Virus record (IMG/VR): IMGVR_UViG_3300003322_000341
Location: 1-20,824 of that record
DNA: 20,824 nt
Reading direction: 5' to 3' (one strand)
Source of the DNA: a virus
Shown here: in pieces, positions 2,281-16,244 of the stretch
Layout of the letters: each line of letters begins with the position of its first letter
Numbering within the stretch: the first letter of the stretch is position 1
Notes under the pieces: generated by a model
What the model was told of the DNA's origin: nothing
The model's input: the letters and a program-made list of their open reading frames with translations, nothing else
The model's database searches: none
Program-made: the position numbers and the translations under genes

Positions 2281-4359
2281 TCACTGCATGGTCACCTGCT
2301 GCGGCGGCTGAAGCATCTGCTGCAGCGCCTGGTAGCTGGCGATCAGCTGGTCGTTGTGGCTTCCCATGGTGTCGGCGTAGGTCTTGGCCGTCTGCGCCCG
2401 CTTCAGGTCCGCGTCGGCGACGACTTGCACAGTCTGTGCGCGAGCCTTGCCGGCGTCGGCCTGGGCCTGTTCGGCAGCGGCCAGGGCGAACTGGTCTTGG
2501 GGCGACGGCTGGGCTTGGGCCTGTTCCTGAGCCATCTCGGCAGCCTCGTCCTTGGTGGGCTTGATGACGCCCATGCGGACCAGCTTGCGGCGGAAGTACT
2601 CGCGGGCGTCGTTGACGCCCTCGCCGTCCATGTTCATGAGGATCAGGCCGTCCAGGATGGCGATGGTCTCCGGGTCCTGCGTGTTGGCCTTCATCGCGGT
2701 CAACTCGCGCACGGTGGCGGCGCGCCTGCTGCTGCTGCTGGGGCCGACGTCGGGAACGACATCGAAGTTCGCCTTCGTAATGTCGTTGCGGGTGTAGTCC
2801 TCGCCAGTCTCCGGGTCGTATGCGGCCTGGTTCAGGATGATGCTGCTCGGCGTGCCGTCTGCAGCCAGTACCTTGCGCTTGTCGTCGCTGTCGACGGCGA
2901 TGTCGCGCATCATCGCGAGCCAGATTTCGCCCTCGCGCTTGCGGCTACGGGCCAGGTTGCTGAGGTAGATGAACACCTGCATGTCCAGTCGGTTCTGGAT
3001 CAGCTCGACCGTCTTGCCGCTGATGTTGGACTGCATCTGCTCGCCGGCCTGCTGGTTGCCCAGCATGTCCTCGAGCGCCTGGACGGCCATCTGCGCCAGC
3101 GCGGCGACGGCCGGCGGTACCTCGGGCGACTGCTTGTAGCCGGCCGGCACGTTGCTGCCCGGGATGGGCTGGCCGGTGGCCGGGTCGGTCATCAGGTTGG
3201 CCAGCAGGTACGGGAAGCGCTGGACGTTGTGGTTCGCCCACATGTAGGCGTGGCCGGCGATCTGCTCGGGCGACATGATCGGAACGTCAGGGCCCGACTC
3301 GGCCGCCATCTGCGCCAGCCACGACAGCAGCATGTTGTAGAGCCGCTGAGCGTCTTTGGCCAGGCGCACATGCCCGTTGCAGCGCTCGATACCGTCGACC
3401 ACCTGGCGCATGCCGTAGAACGGCACGACCGGAATCTCCGTGCCGGCGATGCGCTGCGGCTTGTGGTCGCCCTTGTCGAAGATCTTGCCGCCGCTCATCG
3501 TGTACTTCCACACGACGCGCTGACGCACGCGCTTCTGGCGGACCTCGGTGAAGCCGGTGGCTTCCAGTTCCTCGGCCAGGCCCTCGTCCTCTTCCAGCTC
3601 GGTCTCGGTGACGCGGCGCTCGTCGCCCATCAGGCCTTGGAAGAAGTGCACGAGCTCGGTCTCTTCCTCGATGCGGTACAGCTCGGCGACGTAGACGACG
3701 TCCGGCGTGCACCAGTCGAACTCGTTCATCCGGATCTCGTGCGGCCAGGTCGTCGGGTCGTCGTCGAATTCGTCCTCGTACTTGCGGCGGTCGTAAGGCG
3801 TCAGCACGTAGCAGCGCGAGGCGTCGCGCTTGTCGTAGCGCTTGCCATCAAGCGACCAGAACACGCGGTTGTCGGCGTCGTGGATGGGCTCGATGCGAAT
3901 CCGCTGCTGATCGTTGTCGTCGTCGAGCTCGTCCTCATAGTCCGCGCACAGGCGCCAGGCACCAAAGCCGCCGGAGACGCCCTCCTCGAAGGCCGTGTCG
4001 ACGGCCTCGTCGCCGCCGCTGGCCTGGAAGTCGGCGCGGTATAGGCCGTCGCAGGCGTCGGCCAGGTCGTCATCCTTGCTGCCGTCCTTCGGCTGGAAGT
4101 CCAGCGTGATGCGGTTGTTGCGGTACTCGCTGATGACACGCTTGACCGCAAGGTGGACCTTGTTGAACTCGAACCGTGGCTTGTTCTCGAACTGGTCGCC
4201 GAGCGGGCCTTCCCACTGCGCGCCGGCGATGTAGCAGAAGCGACGATCCTCCAGGCACTGCATGCGCTCTTCGCGCACCGCGGCCTGGATGTCGCTGAAC
4301 TCCTGCAGGGCCTCGGCGTGGAGGTCTTGCAGCTTGGCTTGTCGGGATTGGCGTGCCAT
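2281..4359 (-). CDS. P22-type portal protein
   Basis: 692 aa (P22 gp1 is 725 aa). The P22 portal pattern can be followed in order: an HLAVKRVISEYRNNRI helix and QPKDGSKDDDLAD near residues 70-100, GFGAWRLCADYEDE near 130-145, IRIEPIHDADNRVFW, DKRDASRCYVL, a stem/clip region ending TEIPVVPFYGMRQVVDG, LAKDAQRLYNMLLSW, and SPEQIAGHAYMW. A DVGPSSSSRR stretch and a long Gln/Ala-rich C-terminal helix follow, the counterpart of the P22 barrel. It forms the dodecameric DNA channel at the packaging vertex, contacting terminase and scaffold. ATG 4359 has AAAGG upstream and starts 10 bases after the stop of the glycoside hydrolase gene. A 74-base gap separates it from the scaffold gene. Confidence 0.95.
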   Translation of the reverse strand: MARQSRQAKLQDLHAEALQEFSDIQAAVREERMQCLEDRRFCYIAGAQWEGPLGDQFENKPRFEFNKVHLAVKRVISEYRNNRITLDFQPKDGSKDDDLADACDGLYRADFQASGGDEAVDTAFEEGVSGGFGAWRLCADYEDELDDDNDQQRIRIEPIHDADNRVFWSLDGKRYDKRDASRCYVLTPYDRRKYEDEFDDDPTTWPHEIRMNEFDWCTPDVVYVAELYRIEEETELVHFFQGLMGDERRVTETELEEDEGLAEELEATGFTEVRQKRVRQRVVWKYTMSGGKIFDKGDHKPQRIAGTEIPVVPFYGMRQVVDGIERCNGHVRLAKDAQRLYNMLLSWLAQMAAESGPDVPIMSPEQIAGHAYMWANHNVQRFPYLLANLMTDPATGQPIPGSNVPAGYKQSPEVPPAVAALAQMAVQALEDMLGNQQAGEQMQSNISGKTVELIQNRLDMQVFIYLSNLARSRKREGEIWLAMMRDIAVDSDDKRKVLAADGTPSSIILNQAAYDPETGEDYTRNDITKANFDVVPDVGPSSSSRRAATVRELTAMKANTQDPETIAILDGLILMNMDGEGVNDAREYFRRKLVRMGVIKPTKDEAAEMAQEQAQAQPSPQDQFALAAAEQAQADAGKARAQTVQVVADADLKRAQTAKTYADTMGSHNDQLIASYQALQQMLQPPQQVTMQ

Positions 4360-4369
4360 CGCGTGCCTT

Positions 4370-5554
4370 TCAGACCACGAGCGACGTGCCGTCGGTGAAG
4401 TTCATCCACTCTCGGCCGTCGGGGTAATAGCCGGCCGCGGACATGGTCTTGCCGGCGCACGCCGAATAGACCTGCTGACGGCCGAGGACGTAGCCCGTCG
4501 TGTCAGCGACTTGGTCGCCGCACAGCAGGTTGCCGCCGTAGCTGAAGTCACACATGCACTTCAGCCCATGGCGGATGCCGCTCATGAAGCGGCGGATGGT
4601 CTCGATGCGACGCTGGTTGGCTGACTGCGCAAGCCATGCCTGCACCGTGGCCGAAGGGCTGGCGCGCGATCCGCCGGAGTCGTAGCCGAACTCCGTGCAC
4701 CAGATGTCGATGCCCTGCTTGTTGTAGGGCACGAGCGCCAACCGAATCTGGTTGACGCCGCCTTGCGGTAGCGTGCCGTGCGTGCCTCGGCCGGCATAGG
4801 TGGGGTTGGCGGTCGCCCAATATGGATGCGACGCGACAGCGTCGAACGTCTGCCAACCCATCGTGCCGACCAGCGCCGGGTAGGCCGCGGCGATGTCGGA
4901 GCCACCCGCCGCCTGGGCCAGCCATGTGCTGAAAGTGGGCACGTTGTACATGCCGCACGTCAGCACCACCATGCTCGGATCGGCCGTCTTTACCGTGGAG
5001 TAGATGACGGCGCGCTCGTTCACGAACTGCTGTGCCGTGCCCCACCATTCGCCGACCGTCGTGCCAGCGAAGTTGTTCGCCTCGGGCTCGTTGCGGACCT
5101 GAATGGCCTTGAAGAAGCCATTCCAGACCGTCTTATTGCGGGCGATGAATTGCTGGAAGAAGTAGGCGACCTGCGTCAGGTCGTTCGGGTAGCTGCCGCC
5201 GCCCGGACGCCCATAGGGATCGTTCGTTGCCGCTTGACCAGCCTGCGCAAGCCATGCGCCGATGCTGTGCCAAGCGAAGATGCCCGAAAGCACGCCATTG
5301 GCCACCCACTGCGTCACGAACAGGTCGAGGTTTGCCCAGTTGATGGTGTTCGCGGCCGTGAACATCACCGAAGGACTGAGCGCGCTGCAGTCGTAGGTGG
5401 ACACGATGCCCAGCTGGAACGCCGGAGGATTCGTACCGTCGCCGCCGCTCGTCGGTGCGCGGACAGGCCAGTCCTGCGTATTCGTACCGAAGAACGTTGT
5501 CGGGATGAAGAGAGGCCCCGAGGCGGTCTGGACCGCCCCCGAGTCGGGGCTCAC
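4370..5554 (-). CDS. Clan GH-A (GH39-like) glycoside hydrolase in the head module
   Basis: 394 aa. The sequence shows the landmarks of a retaining TIM-barrel glycosidase of clan GH-A. FFGTNTQDWP lies near the N-terminus (20-30). The NEP motif (N155-E156-P157) supplies the acid/base Glu. HPYW is at 243-246. WCTEFGY (285-291) places E288 as the nucleophile. The order and the FFG start are closest to GH39-like enzymes. The last ~65 residues hold several Cys (CMCDF, LLCGD). There is no signal peptide or membrane segment. The start is GTG 5554, overlapping the stop of the 272-aa gene by GTGA, so the two are probably translated together. Between terminase and portal, the likely role is a virion-borne enzyme degrading capsule or envelope glycan during adsorption; the substrate cannot be read from the sequence. 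It could instead be a cargo gene altering the host surface. Confidence 0.85.
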   Translation of the reverse strand: MSPDSGAVQTASGPLFIPTTFFGTNTQDWPVRAPTSGGDGTNPPAFQLGIVSTYDCSALSPSVMFTAANTINWANLDLFVTQWVANGVLSGIFAWHSIGAWLAQAGQAATNDPYGRPGGGSYPNDLTQVAYFFQQFIARNKTVWNGFFKAIQVRNEPEANNFAGTTVGEWWGTAQQFVNERAVIYSTVKTADPSMVVLTCGMYNVPTFSTWLAQAAGGSDIAAAYPALVGTMGWQTFDAVASHPYWATANPTYAGRGTHGTLPQGGVNQIRLALVPYNKQGIDIWCTEFGYDSGGSRASPSATVQAWLAQSANQRRIETIRRFMSGIRHGLKCMCDFSYGGNLLCGDQVADTTGYVLGRQQVYSACAGKTMSAAGYYPDGREWMNFTDGTSLVV

Positions 5555-9945: not shown

Positions 9946-10394
9946 GCCGCCTCCCCCAGCAGCTCGCCCTGTATCTGCTGCACCGCCATCGGCGTGATCG
10001 TGATGACGACGCGGGCCTCGCCGTCGGGCTCCATGCGCTCGGCGGCGTAGCTGAAGATCCGCTTGTCGTCCTCGAAGGCGACGCCGTTGAGCGCATCGAG
10101 CAGGACCTTCTCGGCATTGGTCAGGTCCATGCACTGCACGGTGTCGTCCCAAGCTGCGCCGTGCTGGCGCTGACGCTTCGCCCAGTCCAGCGGCCGGTGC
10201 GGGTACAGCTGCAGCCTGACCGCGACGCGACCCACGATCGGCCGGCGCACGCCCTGCTCGAACGCGAGGCAGGCCACGGTCTTGATGAACGCCTTCGCCT
10301 CCTTGGTCGGCACGATGCTGATGTGCTTGCCGAGCTTGACGGGCTGCCAGTAGCGGTTGGCGCTGATCGGGTAGGGGAGGGTCAGGCGGATCAC
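9942..10394 (-). CDS. rusA: RusA-family Holliday junction resolvase
   Basis: 150 aa from GTG 10394, which overlaps the upstream stop (GTGA). The N-terminus IRLTLPYPISANRYW is the typical RusA opening (strand plus PxSxNRxW). The catalytic block is MDLTNAEKVLLDALNGVAFEDDKRI: D90, N93, K96, D100 and the D109/D110 pair line up with the RusA pattern DxDNxxKxxxDAL...DD. The second Asp of DxDN is Thr92 here, which is unusual. RusA-type enzymes cut four-way junctions and in phages clear branched DNA before packaging; they act as dimers. The gene lies between replication and packaging genes, as expected. Family assignment is confident; activity is less so because of Thr92. Confidence 0.85.
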   Translation of the reverse strand: MIRLTLPYPISANRYWQPVKLGKHISIVPTKEAKAFIKTVACLAFEQGVRRPIVGRVAVRLQLYPHRPLDWAKRQRQHGAAWDDTVQCMDLTNAEKVLLDALNGVAFEDDKRIFSYAAERMEPDGEARVVITITPMAVQQIQGELLGEAA

Positions 10395-10624
10395 GCGAAC
10401 GCCCTCCACACCGCATAGCCCATGAGCCCCGCAAGCACGATCGCTGCAGCGATCAGCTTGAGCTTGACGGCCACGAAGAATCCGAGGATGAGCAGCACGT
10501 TGGCCGCAGGCGACCAGAGGTTGTGTTGCGGCCGCTGGCTGTCCACGATCTGCTGGGCCTCCCTGCATGCGCAGTTGCGACCCTGGCCGACCTGGCAGTG
10601 AACGCACTTTTCCCGTTTTCCCAT
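10391..10624 (-). CDS. Small Cys-motif membrane protein
   Basis: 77 aa from ATG 10624. The N-terminus has CVHC and NCAC (a possible metal-binding patch). The C-terminal half holds two closely spaced hydrophobic segments (NVLLILGFFVAV and LIAAAIVLAGLMGYAVW), so a hairpin in the inner membrane is likely. Its stop overlaps the RusA start. The frame is open back to an ATG at 10780, five bases after the prim-pol stop, which would give 129 aa. That extension is translated GGGAAA-type repeats (Arg/Lys/Pro/Gly-rich) and looks non-coding, but it cannot be excluded. Function unknown. Confidence 0.55.
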   Translation of the reverse strand: MGKREKCVHCQVGQGRNCACREAQQIVDSQRPQHNLWSPAANVLLILGFFVAVKLKLIAAAIVLAGLMGYAVWRAFA

Positions 10625-10778
10625 TTCCCATTCCCGATTCCCGGGAAAAAGTCTGGTCAACGGGAATTCCCGGGGCTCCCCTCTACTTTTCCCCTTTCCC
10701 CTACGGGGAAAGAGGGAAAAGCGGGAAGCGGGCTTGCCGACCGACGGTAAATCGACCTGTTTTCCCATCAGATTTCCC
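10608..10778. repeat. Cluster of TTCCC/GGGAA motifs, candidate replication or control site
   Basis: About 16 copies of (T)TTCCC or its complement lie in 171 bases. Examples are TTTTCCC at 10608, 10616 and 10760; TTTCCC at 10624, 10695 and 10773; the palindrome TTCCCGGGAA at 10638-10647; and the perfect 12-base palindrome CGGGAATTCCCG at 10661-10672. Both orientations are present, and the composition differs from the flanking genes. It begins just past the end of the prim-pol/helicase gene, so an iteron-like origin bound by that protein or a partner is a natural guess; a regulator-binding site or mRNA element is the alternative. Confidence 0.6.
10686..10721. other. Strong hairpin inside the GGGAA repeat cluster
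   Basis: Left arm CTTTTCCCCTTTCCCC (10686-10701) pairs with the right arm at 10705-10721 over 16 base pairs, with one bulged A at 10713 and a TAC loop. There is no T tract on either strand after the stem, so it is not a standard rho-independent terminator. It may be extruded as a DNA cruciform or act as an RNA stem between the replication gene and the next genes. Confidence 0.7.
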
Positions 10779-10785
10779 ATCTCAC

Positions 10786-12714
10786 TTACTCCTCGGGATT
10801 CGGGCCGCGACCGTTCAAGTGCACGCGGCCCATGACTTCGGTGATGACTGACTGAGCCGCCAACTGCTCGACGGCGCGGTAGATCGGGGATGAGGTGAAA
10901 CCCTGTTCACCCAATGCCTTGACCAAGTCGGACCGCTTCATCGTGCGGTTCGGCGCTTGGGCCAGCGTCGTGATCAGCGCCGTCTGCAGGGCCTGGCCCT
11001 TGACGCGCTTGCTCGGGATCTGTGCCACGGCCGCCCGGCGGTCGGTGGACTCGACCACGCAGGTGGTGATCGGCTTGTTCCACTGCCCGAGCCCCATGTG
11101 CACCACGCGGAACACCGAGACGATCTCTTCGCCGCGGCTGCTGAGATCGCGTTGCTTGGTGATCGTCGCCGTGTGGATCTTGGTGTCGCTCTCGCCGGTG
11201 ACCTCGATTTCTGTGTCCGTCGCCGCCTTCAAGCTGCTGTGCCCGCGGCTGCCCTTCGCCGAGTCCTTGCCGCTGTGGTGAACGAACATGACGTGCGCGC
11301 CGGTGAGCTCGCGCAGCCGGTCGGCGTGCGTGATGACGGCGCCCATGTCCTCGCTGGCGTTCTCGTTGCCACCGCCAAAGGCGCGGGCCAGCGTGTCGAT
11401 CACGATCAGCGCCACCGGCACGCCGTAGCGGGCTGAAACGGCAGTACAGGCATCGGCGAGCCGGGACAGGTCGGCGCGTGCGTCGAGCAGGTTCACCGCC
11501 ACCGGGACGATAGCTAGGGCCGGGTCGGCGCAGTGCAACTGCCGCCAGGCCAGCACGCGCAGCTTGATCGACTCCGCACCCTCACCGGCCACGTACAGCA
11601 CAGCGCCCTGCACCGTGCGCTTGCCAAGCCATTCCCGGCCGGTGCCAACATGGCAACCCATGTCGCAGGCCATGAAGCTCTTGCCGCTGTTGGACTCCCC
11701 GTACATGACCGACAGGCCGCCGCGGGTGATCACGTCCTCGACCAGCTGCTCAATGCGAATGCTGGCCTGCGTGATGTCCTCCGAGAACACCAGCGGCAGG
11801 CCCTGGGCTTCGGATGGGGCGACAGGCGCCGGCCCCGCGTTTTTCCACCCGCTGTCCTGGGCCATCTTGAACACCGTGTTGAGCCCCACGCCGGCCAAGC
11901 CGCGGGGCTTAAAGCTGCGCCAGACCCGGAGTTGGTCCTGGGCGTCGTACTTGCTTGACTGCTGGCTCCAGGCATCCCAGAGCGCGAAGCCGTCGGCGCC
12001 CGGCATCTCGTTGTTGATGGCCTGGCCCACCTGCACCCAGGTCTCGCGGTCGTCGGCGCCGATGTGCTGCAGCGCTTCGTGCACGTCGTGCAGGCGCTGC
12101 GGCGCAATCGGGTTGACCGGCGCCGGCGCGGCCGGCAGTACCGGGGCGGCCCGGCCCATGTCGCGAATCCAGGCCGGCAGGGTCGACGGCACCACGCCGT
12201 CCAGCGGGTCGCTGCTGGTCTCCCAGACGTAGGGCCGCGTGTGCGGCGGCTCGGCCAGCGGTGCGAACGACGGTTCAACAGCGATGTAGCCGTCGGCCTT
12301 CAGGTCCACGCCCGGGCCCAGCTTGCCCGGCAGGTGCTCCACCAGCGCCGCCGCGAACACCCGGTGTTCGCCACCGCCACCGGTGTACGCCAGCACGTCC
12401 GACACGATGGGGCCGTGCTGGGCCTCCAGCCGCTCCATGGTCTCCATGCCGCCGTTGCGGGGGTCGATGTCCACGGCCACCAGGCCGCTGCCCTTCAGCG
12501 CAATGCCGATGTTCGCGGTGGGCTCGCTGGCCCACCAACTGCGGATCTGGTCGGCGTCGGTGGTGGCGTCGTGAAAGCCGTTGCGCACCAGGCGGCCGAG
12601 CGGCTTCTTGGTGCCCGGCGTCAACGGCAGCACGTGCCAGCCCAGCAGCGCATAGCGCAGCGCGTAGTTCAGCGCGCTCCGCGCTTCGTTGAGGTCGTGC
12701 ACGGCGGCGGTCAT
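10786..12714 (-). CDS. Prim-pol / RepA-type helicase fusion replication protein
   Basis: 642 aa from ATG 12714, which overlaps the upstream stop (ATGA). Residues ~10-185 are a bifunctional primase/polymerase domain: GWHVLPLTPGTKKPL, the metal pair in VAVDIDPRNGG (D82, D84) and the His of GGGGEHRVF (H117). Residues ~208-285 match the PriCT helical module (EALQHIGADDRETWVQVG, then LWDAWSQQSSKYD). Residues ~315-560 form a RecA-like hexameric helicase core: Walker A YGESNSGKSF (K345), Walker B VALIVIDTLARAF (D440) and FVHHSGKD (479-484). A C-terminal winged-helix-like part (MKRSDLVKALGEQGFTSSPIYRAVEQL) follows. The protein probably starts and drives phage DNA replication. Nearby: two HTH proteins upstream and the GGGAA cluster downstream. 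Confidence 0.92.
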   Translation of the reverse strand: MTAAVHDLNEARSALNYALRYALLGWHVLPLTPGTKKPLGRLVRNGFHDATTDADQIRSWWASEPTANIGIALKGSGLVAVDIDPRNGGMETMERLEAQHGPIVSDVLAYTGGGGEHRVFAAALVEHLPGKLGPGVDLKADGYIAVEPSFAPLAEPPHTRPYVWETSSDPLDGVVPSTLPAWIRDMGRAAPVLPAAPAPVNPIAPQRLHDVHEALQHIGADDRETWVQVGQAINNEMPGADGFALWDAWSQQSSKYDAQDQLRVWRSFKPRGLAGVGLNTVFKMAQDSGWKNAGPAPVAPSEAQGLPLVFSEDITQASIRIEQLVEDVITRGGLSVMYGESNSGKSFMACDMGCHVGTGREWLGKRTVQGAVLYVAGEGAESIKLRVLAWRQLHCADPALAIVPVAVNLLDARADLSRLADACTAVSARYGVPVALIVIDTLARAFGGGNENASEDMGAVITHADRLRELTGAHVMFVHHSGKDSAKGSRGHSSLKAATDTEIEVTGESDTKIHTATITKQRDLSSRGEEIVSVFRVVHMGLGQWNKPITTCVVESTDRRAAVAQIPSKRVKGQALQTALITTLAQAPNRTMKRSDLVKALGEQGFTSSPIYRAVEQLAAQSVITEVMGRVHLNGRGPNPEE

Positions 12715-12965
12715 GCAGCTTTCAAAGTGGCCTTGAGGTAACGCGCGACCAGATGCAGAGCGCTGCGGACGCCAGCCTTGCGGTTGCAGACCTTCAAGTG
12801 ATCCTTGAGCGTGCACTCGGCAATGCCGAGCTTCCAAGCGGCGAGCTTGCGGCAGCCGTACTCGGCCAAGGCCTCAATGACTTCACGCTCGCGTCGGGTG
12901 AGATTGCCGGGGAAGTACTCGGGGCCCCTGGCGCGCTCGAGACGGATCTGGGTGGATGAGCTCAC
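12711..12965 (-). CDS. LuxR-type HTH protein, copy B
   Basis: 84 aa, GTG 12965 with GGAGGGG just upstream and a GTGA overlap with copy A. It is an isolated GerE/LuxR C-terminal helix-turn-helix: LTRREREVIEALAEYGCRKLA, then AWKLGIAECTLKDHLKVCNRKAGVRSALHLVARY. There is no receiver or ligand domain, so it is a bare DNA-binding unit. It is clearly paralogous to the neighbouring gene (29 of 62 aligned residues identical, counted by hand). Placed between a CII-like gene and the replication gene, it likely regulates phage transcription; target unknown. Confidence 0.85.
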   Translation of the reverse strand: MSSSTQIRLERARGPEYFPGNLTRREREVIEALAEYGCRKLAAWKLGIAECTLKDHLKVCNRKAGVRSALHLVARYLKATLKAA

Positions 12966-13258
12966 GTTCCCCTCCGCAGTTGCTGGTGAAGCTCCCAGGC
13001 GCCCTGCAGCGATGGCTTGCCGCGGCTGGGGTCCTTGGCCTGTGCGTAGCGCGCGATCAAGTGCAAGGTCGTGCGCACGCCGGCTTTGACCCGGGCGCTG
13101 TGCAGGTGGTTCTCGACGGTGCACTTGCGCAAGGACAGGCGTTCTGCGACTTCAACGGGGCAGCCGAGCTCGGCCATCACGTCGACCAGCAGGCGCTCGG
13201 CCGGCGTGAGGTTGGCCGGGAAGTCTTCCGCACGCTTGCGGGCATGCTGAGCACTCAT
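12962..13258 (-). CDS. LuxR-type HTH protein, copy A
   Basis: 98 aa, ATG 13258 overlapping the CII-like stop (ATGA). Core: FPANLTPAERLLVDVMAELG, then CPVEVAERLSLRKCTVENHL and KAGVRTTLHLIARYAQA, the LuxR four-helix pattern. A basic tail (LHQQLRRGT) follows. Like copy B it has only the DNA-binding part. The pair share FPxNLT, AExGC, CT..HL and KAGVR..LHL.ARY, pointing to tandem duplication followed by divergence in the recognition helix. Probable small phage transcription regulator, perhaps acting as a heterodimer with copy B (inference). Confidence 0.85.
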   Translation of the reverse strand: MSAQHARKRAEDFPANLTPAERLLVDVMAELGCPVEVAERLSLRKCTVENHLHSARVKAGVRTTLHLIARYAQAKDPSRGKPSLQGAWELHQQLRRGT

Positions 13259-13620
13259 GTGGCCGCCCTCAGCGACGCCACGAGCTGCGCCAGTTCTGGC
13301 AGCAGGCCCTCGACCTTGGTCAGCATGCGGTGCTTGCGGGCCTCGGGCGTGTCCATGTACTTGGCGGCCAAGTACTCGATCACCGCGGGGGCGTCATTCG
13401 TGCTGGCCAGCCAGGCCTCGAGGTCGTCGAGGTTGAACCGCTGGGTGTCACCCTCGTTGGGGTTGAGCTTGCGAGTCAGCGTGGACGGCGCCAGGTCCAT
13501 GTCCGCGGCTTGCGTCTTCTGGGACTTGGCTACGACGGTGGAGCGGTGCGCGACATAGGCGCGCAGGCTGGAGAAGCGCTCCGGGAGCGACGGCTCCCAG
13601 TTCAAGGTGAGCTGGTTCAT
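13255..13620 (-). CDS. CII-like phage regulatory protein
   Basis: 121 aa from ATG 13620; no strong ribosome site. The middle holds a helix-turn-helix of the type in phage CII/CP76 proteins: VVAKSQKTQAADMDLAPSTLTRK, then LNPNEGDTQRFNLDDLEAWLA. The C-terminal half (VIEYLAAKY to the end) is helical and may tetramerise, as CII does. It is the first gene of the leftward operon and overlaps the next by ATGA. By analogy it would activate genes for lysogeny, but only the fold and position support this. Confidence 0.72.
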   Translation of the reverse strand: MNQLTLNWEPSLPERFSSLRAYVAHRSTVVAKSQKTQAADMDLAPSTLTRKLNPNEGDTQRFNLDDLEAWLASTNDAPAVIEYLAAKYMDTPEARKHRMLTKVEGLLPELAQLVASLRAAT

Positions 13621-13628
13621 CGCACGAC

Positions 13629-13715
13629 ATGGCAAGACGGGTTGCCGTCTGTTGCCATCTCCGGTTTGGACAAAAAAAGGAGAGTCCGGTCATGGCAAAC
13701 ACAACCGGACACTCT
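13629..13715. promoter_or_regulatory. Operator-like repeat array upstream of the CII-like gene
   Basis: Two motif sets are packed here. First, GTTGCC/GGCAAC half-sites: GGCAA at 13631, tandem GTTGCCGTCT and GTTGCCATCT at 13641-13660, and ATGGCAAA at 13692. ATGGCAA (13629-13635) and TTGCCAT (13652-13658) form an inverted repeat. Second, TCCGGT at 13660 and 13685, with its complement ACCGGA at 13704. AGAGTCCGGT (13681-13690) and ACCGGACACTCT (13704-13715) form an imperfect dyad. This fits regulator binding between divergent genes. I cannot place a convincing -35/-10 pair. Confidence 0.55.
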
Positions 13716-14338: not shown

Positions 14339-14370
14339 TGCATATTCTGGCAGTCGCTGAAGAATATGCA
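14339..14370. promoter_or_regulatory. Operator between cro-like and CI-like genes
   Basis: Perfect inverted repeat: TGCATATTCT (14339-14348) and AGAATATGCA (14361-14370) with 12 bases between. It fills the intergenic space and its right arm includes the ATG of the CI-like frame. AT-rich arms also offer poor -10-like hexamers (TATTCT on plus). The most likely ligand is the CI-like or Cro-like protein. Related ATATTCT copies recur at 15276-15307. Confidence 0.75.
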
Positions 14371-15022
14371 AGTGCGATTCAATCCGCGGATGGAAGAAGA
14401 CTTGGACTCAGTCGGCGGCCGCCTCAGATACGCCAGAGAGAAGCGCGGCCTGAAGCAAGATCAGCTCGCCAAGATGAGCCGCGTGACGCAGTCGACCATT
14501 TCCAAGCTGGAAAAGGGAACCACTCAGGAAACAACCAAGCTCTCAACTCTGGCGCGCGCGTTGCGGACGCCGCTGGACTGGATCGAACTGCGACGCGGGC
14601 CGGAACCCGCCTGGGAAGACCCTGATGCCGCGCATAGCCCACTGCCGCACTCGGATGTAAGCGCCGGCCTTATGCAAACGTTTGAGCATGTCCTCACAAC
14701 GATGGAGGAGCTCATGGGACTGCAGCAGGTGCCGGCGCGCTTTGTATATGCGCTGCCGGATGACGCTATGGGGGAATTCGGCAGAGCCGGTACGGAAGTG
14801 CTATTCCATGCCGCTGACGACGCCAAGCCAGGTGCTGGTGTGCTGGTGCGGGACGGAGCCGGCGCGTTGCACGTACGCCGAAAAGCCCAGGGACGTGAAG
14901 ATTCCCACTGGCTGGCCATCGCGCCAAATCGGGTGTATCGCGATCTAGATAGCGAGCGCGACTCGCTCAAAGTCTTGGCAGTCTGGCGCGGGGTTGTGAA
15001 CCGCGGGCTGGAGGACGTGTGA
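14366..15022 (+). CDS. CI-like repressor with degenerate S24 domain
   Basis: 218 aa. Residues ~15-72 are an XRE helix-turn-helix (RLRYAREKRGLKQDQLAKMS, then RVTQSTISKLEKG). The C-terminal part (~124-212) follows the LexA/CI S24 fold: FVYALPDDAMGEF, AKPGAGVLVRDGAGALHVRR, HWLAIAPNRVY, LKVLAVWRG. Where SM-P usually gives the catalytic Ser there is A134-M135, and where the catalytic Lys is expected there is R171. The spacing of 37 equals LexA Ser119-Lys156. It probably dimerises through this domain but does not self-cleave. The start is uncertain: ATG 14366 lies inside the operator, so the message may be leaderless; ATG 14390 is the alternative. It overlaps the next small gene by GTGA. Confidence 0.85.
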   Translation: MQVRFNPRMEEDLDSVGGRLRYAREKRGLKQDQLAKMSRVTQSTISKLEKGTTQETTKLSTLARALRTPLDWIELRRGPEPAWEDPDAAHSPLPHSDVSAGLMQTFEHVLTTMEELMGLQQVPARFVYALPDDAMGEFGRAGTEVLFHAADDAKPGAGVLVRDGAGALHVRRKAQGREDSHWLAIAPNRVYRDLDSERDSLKVLAVWRGVVNRGLEDV

Positions 15023-15617: not shown

Positions 15618-16244
15618 ATGGAAAAGAAGGCAGTTCAGATCGCGGCACCGAAGCTGCGAACCGTCGAGTTCTTGATCAAGGGCACCGCGCCCTATGTTCA
15701 GGCTCGGTTCTCAGCCAAGGCCATGCAGGCGATGGCGTCCAAGATGGCAGCCGGCAGCTTGGCGAAGAAGGGTGCGAAGCGTGAGGCTCGCGACTTCAAC
15801 GACGACTATCTGCAGGCCCAGCACGTCAGTACTGAGGGTTGGCGCGGTATTCCGGCCGGTGCCTTCCGGCAGGCCATGATTTCCGCCTGCCGGCTGGTTG
15901 GCTTCCGCATGACGCTCGCCAAGCTGTCGGTGTTCGTCGAGGCCGATGGCTTTGACAAGGTCGATGGCGTCCCCCTCATCCGCATCAAGGGTGAGCCGGA
16001 ACGGCTGGACATGGCCGTCCGCAATGCCACGGGAGTGGCTGACATCCGCGTGCGCCCAATGTGGCGCGAGTGGTCCGCAAAGCTCAGGGTTCGCTATGAC
16101 GAAGACCAGTTTTCACTGGATGACATCACAAATCTTGTCATGCGCGTCGGGGTCCAAGTCGGAATTGGCGAAGGCCGGCCTGACTCCCGAGAGTCTGCAG
16201 GACTTGGATGGGGCACCTTTGCACTTGGGGGCAGCGATGAATAA
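15618..16244 (+). CDS. Conserved phage early protein, possible RAMP/Cas7-like fold
   Basis: 208 aa, ATG 15618 with AAGGAG four bases upstream; first gene of the early operon. I recognise the pattern as a widespread phage early-gene family without known function: KGTAPYVQARFS near 21-32, a basic KKGAKREARDF segment, GIPAGAFRQAMISACRLVG at 77-95, VRPMWREW at 145-152, and a Gly-rich end GVQVGIGEGRPDSRESAGLGW at 178-198. Strands alternate with a single helix after GIPAGAF. The IPAGAFRQAM helix and the C-terminal Gly-rich loop resemble the two signature elements of RAMP (Cas7/Csm3-type) RNA-binding proteins; this is my inference and untested. Its place before Sak4/DUF669/nuclease genes suggests nucleic-acid work. 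Confidence 0.6.
   Translation: MEKKAVQIAAPKLRTVEFLIKGTAPYVQARFSAKAMQAMASKMAAGSLAKKGAKREARDFNDDYLQAQHVSTEGWRGIPAGAFRQAMISACRLVGFRMTLAKLSVFVEADGFDKVDGVPLIRIKGEPERLDMAVRNATGVADIRVRPMWREWSAKLRVRYDEDQFSLDDITNLVMRVGVQVGIGEGRPDSRESAGLGWGTFALGGSDE

Follow-up and report, generated by a model that had tools for sequence, protein, structure and literature searches.

Repeat origins next to the gene of their initiator protein, and the exchange of such origins as modules, are already known from SaPI, SCCmec and PLE elements, and stem-loops behind Prim-Pol genes have been proposed for pRN1 and BIP-1. In SaPIs, the short iterons that make up the origin immediately follow the gene of the initiator-helicase Rep, and the C-terminal domain of the helicase recognises them (PMC7581432). 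In SCCmec elements, the C-terminal domain of Cch2 binds AAGTG direct repeats just behind its own gene, with inverted repeats nearby, and this site is a putative origin (PMC7581432). The P4 alpha protein unites a primase, a helicase and a C-terminal winged helix and binds repeats at the origin (PMC4234260). In pRN1, the replication protein ORF904 combines a Prim-Pol with a winged helix, and an element downstream of its gene is essential; in BPP-1/BIP-1, a large stem-loop lies behind the Prim-Pol gene, and an origin element at this place was proposed for BIP-1 (PMC4234260). In the PLE RepA/ICP1 Odn system, the origin-binding domain and the iterons are exchanged as a module and the iterons diversify, with an origin-directed nuclease as the proposed selective force (PMC8263062). 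The GGGAATC repeat of Xanthomonas is a G-rich host repeat that is dispersed, has a 7-bp period and forms inverted pairs (PMC4692102).

We analysed a stretch of viral DNA of 20,824 nucleotides (IMG/VR record IMGVR_UViG_3300003322_000341, hereafter the window) in which a cluster of GGGAA/TTCCC repeats follows a helicase gene. As in SaPIs, the array lies directly behind the gene of its proposed reader, which would act through its C-terminus; unlike in SaPIs, the protein is a Prim-Pol/PriCT_2/AAA_25 (RepA-like) fusion, the carriers are tailed phages, a hairpin is present, the units occur in both orientations, and about 30 units are in use. SCCmec Cch2 differs from the window in having only three iterons, a separate polymerase-primase and a different helicase. 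P4 alpha has a Toprim-type primase and an SF3 helicase, a combination not found in the window protein, which carries Prim-Pol, PriCT_2 and AAA_25 instead. The stem-loops of pRN1 and BPP-1/BIP-1 are large (about 100 nt) and lack iterons, whereas iterons dominate in the window and the stem has 16 bp; a unit array was looked for in BPP-1 and was absent. The PLE initiator is a RepA_N protein of a satellite with iterons of about 30 bp and few module types, whereas here a phage helicase is paired with far more specificities. The Xanthomonas heptads (GGGAATC/GGGANTC) are untied to a replication gene, and the window units, in contrast, are irregularly spaced and form a single cluster. New here are the protein architecture, the number of specificities and the exchange of cassettes between near-identical phages. 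We found no earlier description of such arrays in AAA_25 phages in the open-access literature; one may exist elsewhere.

Repeat array and replication gene of the window

The window encodes a P22-like portal, a distant terminase large-subunit match, HNH, RusA and PD-(D/E)XK proteins and a repressor, and was therefore taken to be a tailed-phage fragment. The features considered below are as follows.

10609-10778, minus strand: iteron-like array, proposed origin of replication, with 15 GGGAA/TTCCC units in both orientations (sequence, counts, simulation, position kept in relatives)
10639-10648, no strand: perfect 10-bp palindrome TTCCCGGGAA, two units tail to tail (sequence)
10662-10671, no strand: perfect 10-bp palindrome GGGAATTCCC, two units head to head (sequence; CCGGAATTCCGG at the corresponding place in L103)
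10686-10721, no strand: stem of 16 bp within the array, interrupted by one bulge and closed by a C-GTA-G triloop (single-stranded DNA fold)
10391-10780, minus strand: ORF through the array (MGNLMGKQ...), its array part unconstrained as protein and only its downstream part likely a small membrane-protein gene
10786-12714, minus strand: replication gene, Prim-Pol + PriCT_2 + AAA_25 (RepA-like) helicase, proposed initiator (Pfam; alignment A1)
10816-11010, minus strand: helicase C-terminal domain, predicted winged helix (H-E-H-H-E-E), proposed iteron-binding domain (AlphaFold2, Foldseek)
12711-13258: LuxR-like HTH protein, encoded upstream of the helicase
13255-13635: CII-like HTH protein, encoded upstream of the helicase
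14366-15022: repressor, encoded next door

One 180-bp stretch contained 15 GGGAA/TTCCC units, whereas the best stretch in 500 order-1 Markov simulations of the window held 2.5 on average and 4 at most. The original prediction had placed about 16 copies in 171 bases; the density was thus upheld, and the count was corrected to 15 on recounting. Of the 20 GGGAAW sites in the window (20.8 kb), 14 lay in the array, and the units formed this one cluster only and were not dispersed. On the helicase strand, the first unit starts 7 bp past the helicase stop codon (10786-10788), in agreement with the predicted position immediately after the prim-pol/helicase gene. The spacing of GGGAA was irregular (6-8 and 12). 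Rfam and ARAGORN found no RNA features in the window, and when the start of the array was used as a DNA pattern, the scan found the known relatives and two chance matches and nothing else.

The two predicted perfect palindromes were both present, with 10 bp each. The predicted 16-bp hairpin was also recovered: folded as single-stranded DNA, positions 10686-10721 formed 16 pairs with one bulge (-15.6 kcal/mol, z = -5.9).

Pfam analysis of the replication gene identified Prim-Pol (8e-31), PriCT_2 (2e-17) and AAA_25 (1e-39), and the alignment suggested that translation starts at the ATG of MTAAVHDLNEARSA. The C-terminal domain of about 65 residues had no Pfam match. AlphaFold2 predicted for it the order helix-strand-helix-helix-strand-strand, which is that of a winged helix, with block-wise pLDDT values of about 76-87 across the greater part of the domain. 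Many winged helices were among the top PDB matches of a Foldseek search with this model, all of them weak (E 0.02-0.15, none below 0.001). The AlphaFold model of the C-terminus of the relative L039 had three helices but lacked a wing, and it matched nothing in the PDB. A search elsewhere in the fetched loci for separate copies of the helicase C-terminal domain, of the kind of Odn-like decoys, found none.

Arrays in close and distant relatives

With the helicase as the query, we obtained the relatives L003-L009, which were 57-88% identical in the best segment. A comparison of this region among related phages had been suggested together with the original prediction; it showed a GGGAA array at the corresponding place in every one of L003-L009 and an array with other units in most relatives. 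The arrays of the window, L003, L004 and L006 aligned without gaps, and invariant columns were more frequent in the units (61 of 75) than in the rest (58 of 101; p = 0.001). L103, whose helicase segment was 64% identical, has TCCGGAA units in the layout of the window.

The stem of L003, L004 and L006 is that of the window with one compensated pair (T-A to C-G), and C-GAA-G triloops close the hairpins of L009 and L103. Throughout the GGGAA/CCGGAA clade (L003-L006, L009, L103; 10701-10705 in the window), the hairpins end in C-GTA-G or C-GAA-G. Both triloops are unusually stable in DNA, which hints at a function of the element in the form of DNA and not of RNA. A hairpin core of CTATAG or CTTTAG is common to many other clades. 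Over 94 arrays, the longest perfect stem had a mean of 7.9 pairs, compared with 5.2 in shuffled sequence, and exceeded all 30 shuffles in 41 arrays.

As judged from translations, the array is followed by a membrane protein in the window, by a zinc-knuckle peptide (CX2CX4HX4C) in L003 and L006, and by a RuvC-like start in L009. This gene (10391-10630 in the window; L003, L005, L006, L009) differs in nearly every close relative, as if the array marked a cargo or recombination boundary.

We then ranked the 300 bp behind the helicase gene for repeat density against the other windows of the same contig in 122 distinct loci. This segment was the most repeat-dense of its contig in 77 loci and within the top 5% in 94, compared with about 1 and 6 expected by chance. 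A strong array was absent from this spot in 28 of the 122 relatives, and an inserted gene had displaced the array in L035 and L037. The unit differed by clade, with about 30 units among the relatives, for example, GGGAA, TCCGGAA, CGGGACA, CTACAAA and TCAGAA. Distant relatives also carried CGTGACA, CGTCACG, CGTTACG, CGGACA, TCGGACA, CGTCCGAAA, ACCGCA, GCGGTA, CCGTACA, TGCAGGAA, GTTACA, GCACCGAA, TACCCGAA and others. Named carriers were a Dyella ginsengisoli contig (GCGGAAGTG), the isolated Roseobacter phage CRP-823 (CTACAAA) and the complete phage ct3Oc712 (TGGGACA). The array of CRP-823 has 11 CTACAA units at about 3186-3348. Neighbouring units of the same orientation were mostly 9-11 bp apart in the non-GGGAA arrays, near one helical turn, whereas GGGAA arrays preferred 8 and 12.

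Three observations concern single loci. The densest array seen was in L219, with 18 units of the GGGGTTA type behind the helicase stop codon. In L029, L030, L033 and L034, a cluster of AAAGTGCA lies about 450-850 bp behind the helicase and not directly behind the gene. In MW202867.1 (L185), the annotated hypothetical protein UOF82828.1 overlies a repeat array (14428-14592) and is probably a spurious gene.

Joint change of the unit and the helicase C-terminus

We compared pairs among the 69 loci with a strong array; these loci are not phylogenetically independent. When the ATPase cores were 90-99.5% identical, the last 75 residues were 92% identical in pairs with the same unit (n = 59) and 37% identical in pairs with different units (n = 61). 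The partial correlation between unit and C-terminus was 0.82 (core identity 60-99.5%).

Five pairs with different units (L110/L126, L112/L126, L132/L126, L159/L129 and L146/L174) were 83-93% identical upstream until about 310-380 bp before the stop codon, differed from there on, and were 80-93% identical again from about 130-260 bp past it. In L110/L126, for example, the identity was 91% until 312-354 bp before the stop codon and 93% again from +129/+234, with different sequences in between. Whole cassettes of C-terminus plus array are thus exchanged between collinear phages.

Concerted changes of the unit were also found. In all 10 of 10 aligned units, L126 and L146 differed at the third base of TCAGA, one having A and the other G (A-to-G or T-to-C), and the hairpin GAGTCTAGAAGACTC was identical. 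The helicases of L039 and L040 are about 98-99% identical outside the C-terminus; their units are CGTGACA and CGGGACA, and the C-terminal differences (Q/K, RR/GK) sit in the predicted last helix. In the homologous arrays of L199, L201 and L202, the units were GCACCGAA, TACCCGAA and TACCCTAT, and the unit positions and the hairpin core CTATAG were kept. Because the array and the C-terminus are neighbours, their joint exchange alone could reflect linkage; only the concerted changes in these three sets argue, on the sequences compared, against mere linkage. At the sequence level, covariation, cassette exchange and concerted changes indicated that the repeat specificity and the C-terminal domain of the proposed initiator correspond to each other.

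Proposed function and alternative explanations

We propose, with a probability of about 0.82, that the array is a set of origin iterons to which the Prim-Pol/AAA_25 helicase binds with its predicted C-terminal winged helix. The array lies behind one initiator-type gene, and all copies of its unit change jointly and in step with the helix-turn-helix; it is therefore likely the binding array of this helicase. We consider an origin the most probable function, since the protein combines primase and helicase, since the arrays of SaPI Rep and SCCmec Cch2 at this position are an established and a putative origin, respectively, and since the winged helix of P4 alpha acts on origin repeats. Both the contact of the C-terminus with the units and the start of replication at the array are inferred. 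The helicase encoded directly upstream would use this domain to bind the GGGAA units, assemble on the array, open the DNA and prime synthesis; the hairpin may be extruded or may serve as a single-strand initiation site. Across the phage family, unit and C-terminal domain change jointly, either when a cassette is exchanged or when all units acquire the same point change.

The helicase might bind the array for another purpose, as an autoregulatory, partition, incompatibility or helicase-loading site. Covariation shows cognate recognition only, and a position behind the gene could serve to regulate the downstream genes, which vary between relatives. GC skew, which had been suggested as a check, gave no support for an origin, with no extremum at the array in two complete circular relatives. 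We nevertheless regard such a site as unlikely, as the array at exactly this position is the origin in SaPIs, and in SCCmec it is a putative origin that is bound and unwound (PMC7581432), and the binder is a helicase-primase and not a regulator. The original prediction had left open whether the cluster was an origin or the target of an HTH protein encoded upstream. The comparative evidence favours the predicted origin. The LuxR-like and CII-like proteins and the repressor are encoded next door, and short inverted units fit HTH dimers; however, phages that are 83-94% identical in their upstream DNA differ in their units, the units follow the helicase C-terminus, and the site is placed behind genes rather than before them. 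As the upstream DNA is kept across a change of unit, the upstream HTH proteins are unlikely binders, and an operator of any of these proteins is very improbable.

The unit resembles the G-rich GGGAATC heptads of Xanthomonas, host-type G-quadruplex repeats that are dispersed between genes and often occur in inverted pairs near ORF ends (PMC4692102), and the array could be a repeat of this type. The window, however, has spacings of 6-8 and 12 without regular heptads, and its units form a single cluster. The units of relatives at the same place (CTACAAA, TCAGAA, GTTACA) lack G-runs, which excludes G4 formation as the function common to all; host-type repeats were ruled out as a general explanation on this ground, and for the window itself this origin of the repeats is hardly credible. 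Finally, the repeats could be no more than a by-product of a gene for a small protein (MGNLMG...GKSRG...). The cluster had been described as a gap among genes, which is not strictly so, as the minus-strand ORF reads through it; this ORF, however, is without sign of protein-level selection. In favour of a gene, L003-L009 have no stop codon in this frame across the array, and the window aligns with L003, L004 and L006 without gaps. Against this, substitutions in the array were even over the codon positions (13/17/11, 11/13/15 and 14/15/11), in contrast to 47/30/101 in the helicase, and codon-position counts revealed no third-position excess in the array ORF. L103 keeps the layout without an ATG start, and the protein sequence is lost when the unit switches. 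Conservation as a translated protein with synonymous-site constraint, which had been named as evidence against a DNA element, was thus not seen. Because substitutions fall evenly over codon positions, unlike in the neighbouring helicase, the array appears to be conserved as DNA and not as protein, and we give the coding explanation next to no weight.

If the array is an origin read by the helicase C-terminus, one step yields predicted origins together with a predicted binding protein for many unstudied phages. The relatives also offer a natural series of matched pairs, each a helicase C-terminus with its DNA unit, which are set apart by a few residues and a single base; the DNA-recognition code of the helix-turn-helix is therefore directly testable. 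The exchange of cassettes among nearly identical phages raises the question of the selective force. We give even odds to the idea that, in this tailed-phage family, C-terminus and array form an exchangeable origin-specificity cassette under diversifying selection, so that near-identical phages would have mutually non-recognised origins. Possible drivers are escape from origin-directed nucleases, satellites or replicon interference.

Two other segments of the window drew our attention. In the structural gene region, a 394-aa ORF (4370-5554) has no Pfam match; from an impression of its text only, we take it to resemble a glycoside hydrolase. The intergenic segment 15370-15610, before the gene at 15618, is rich in AGGC/GGCAAGG-like words and is a possible repeat-rich control region.
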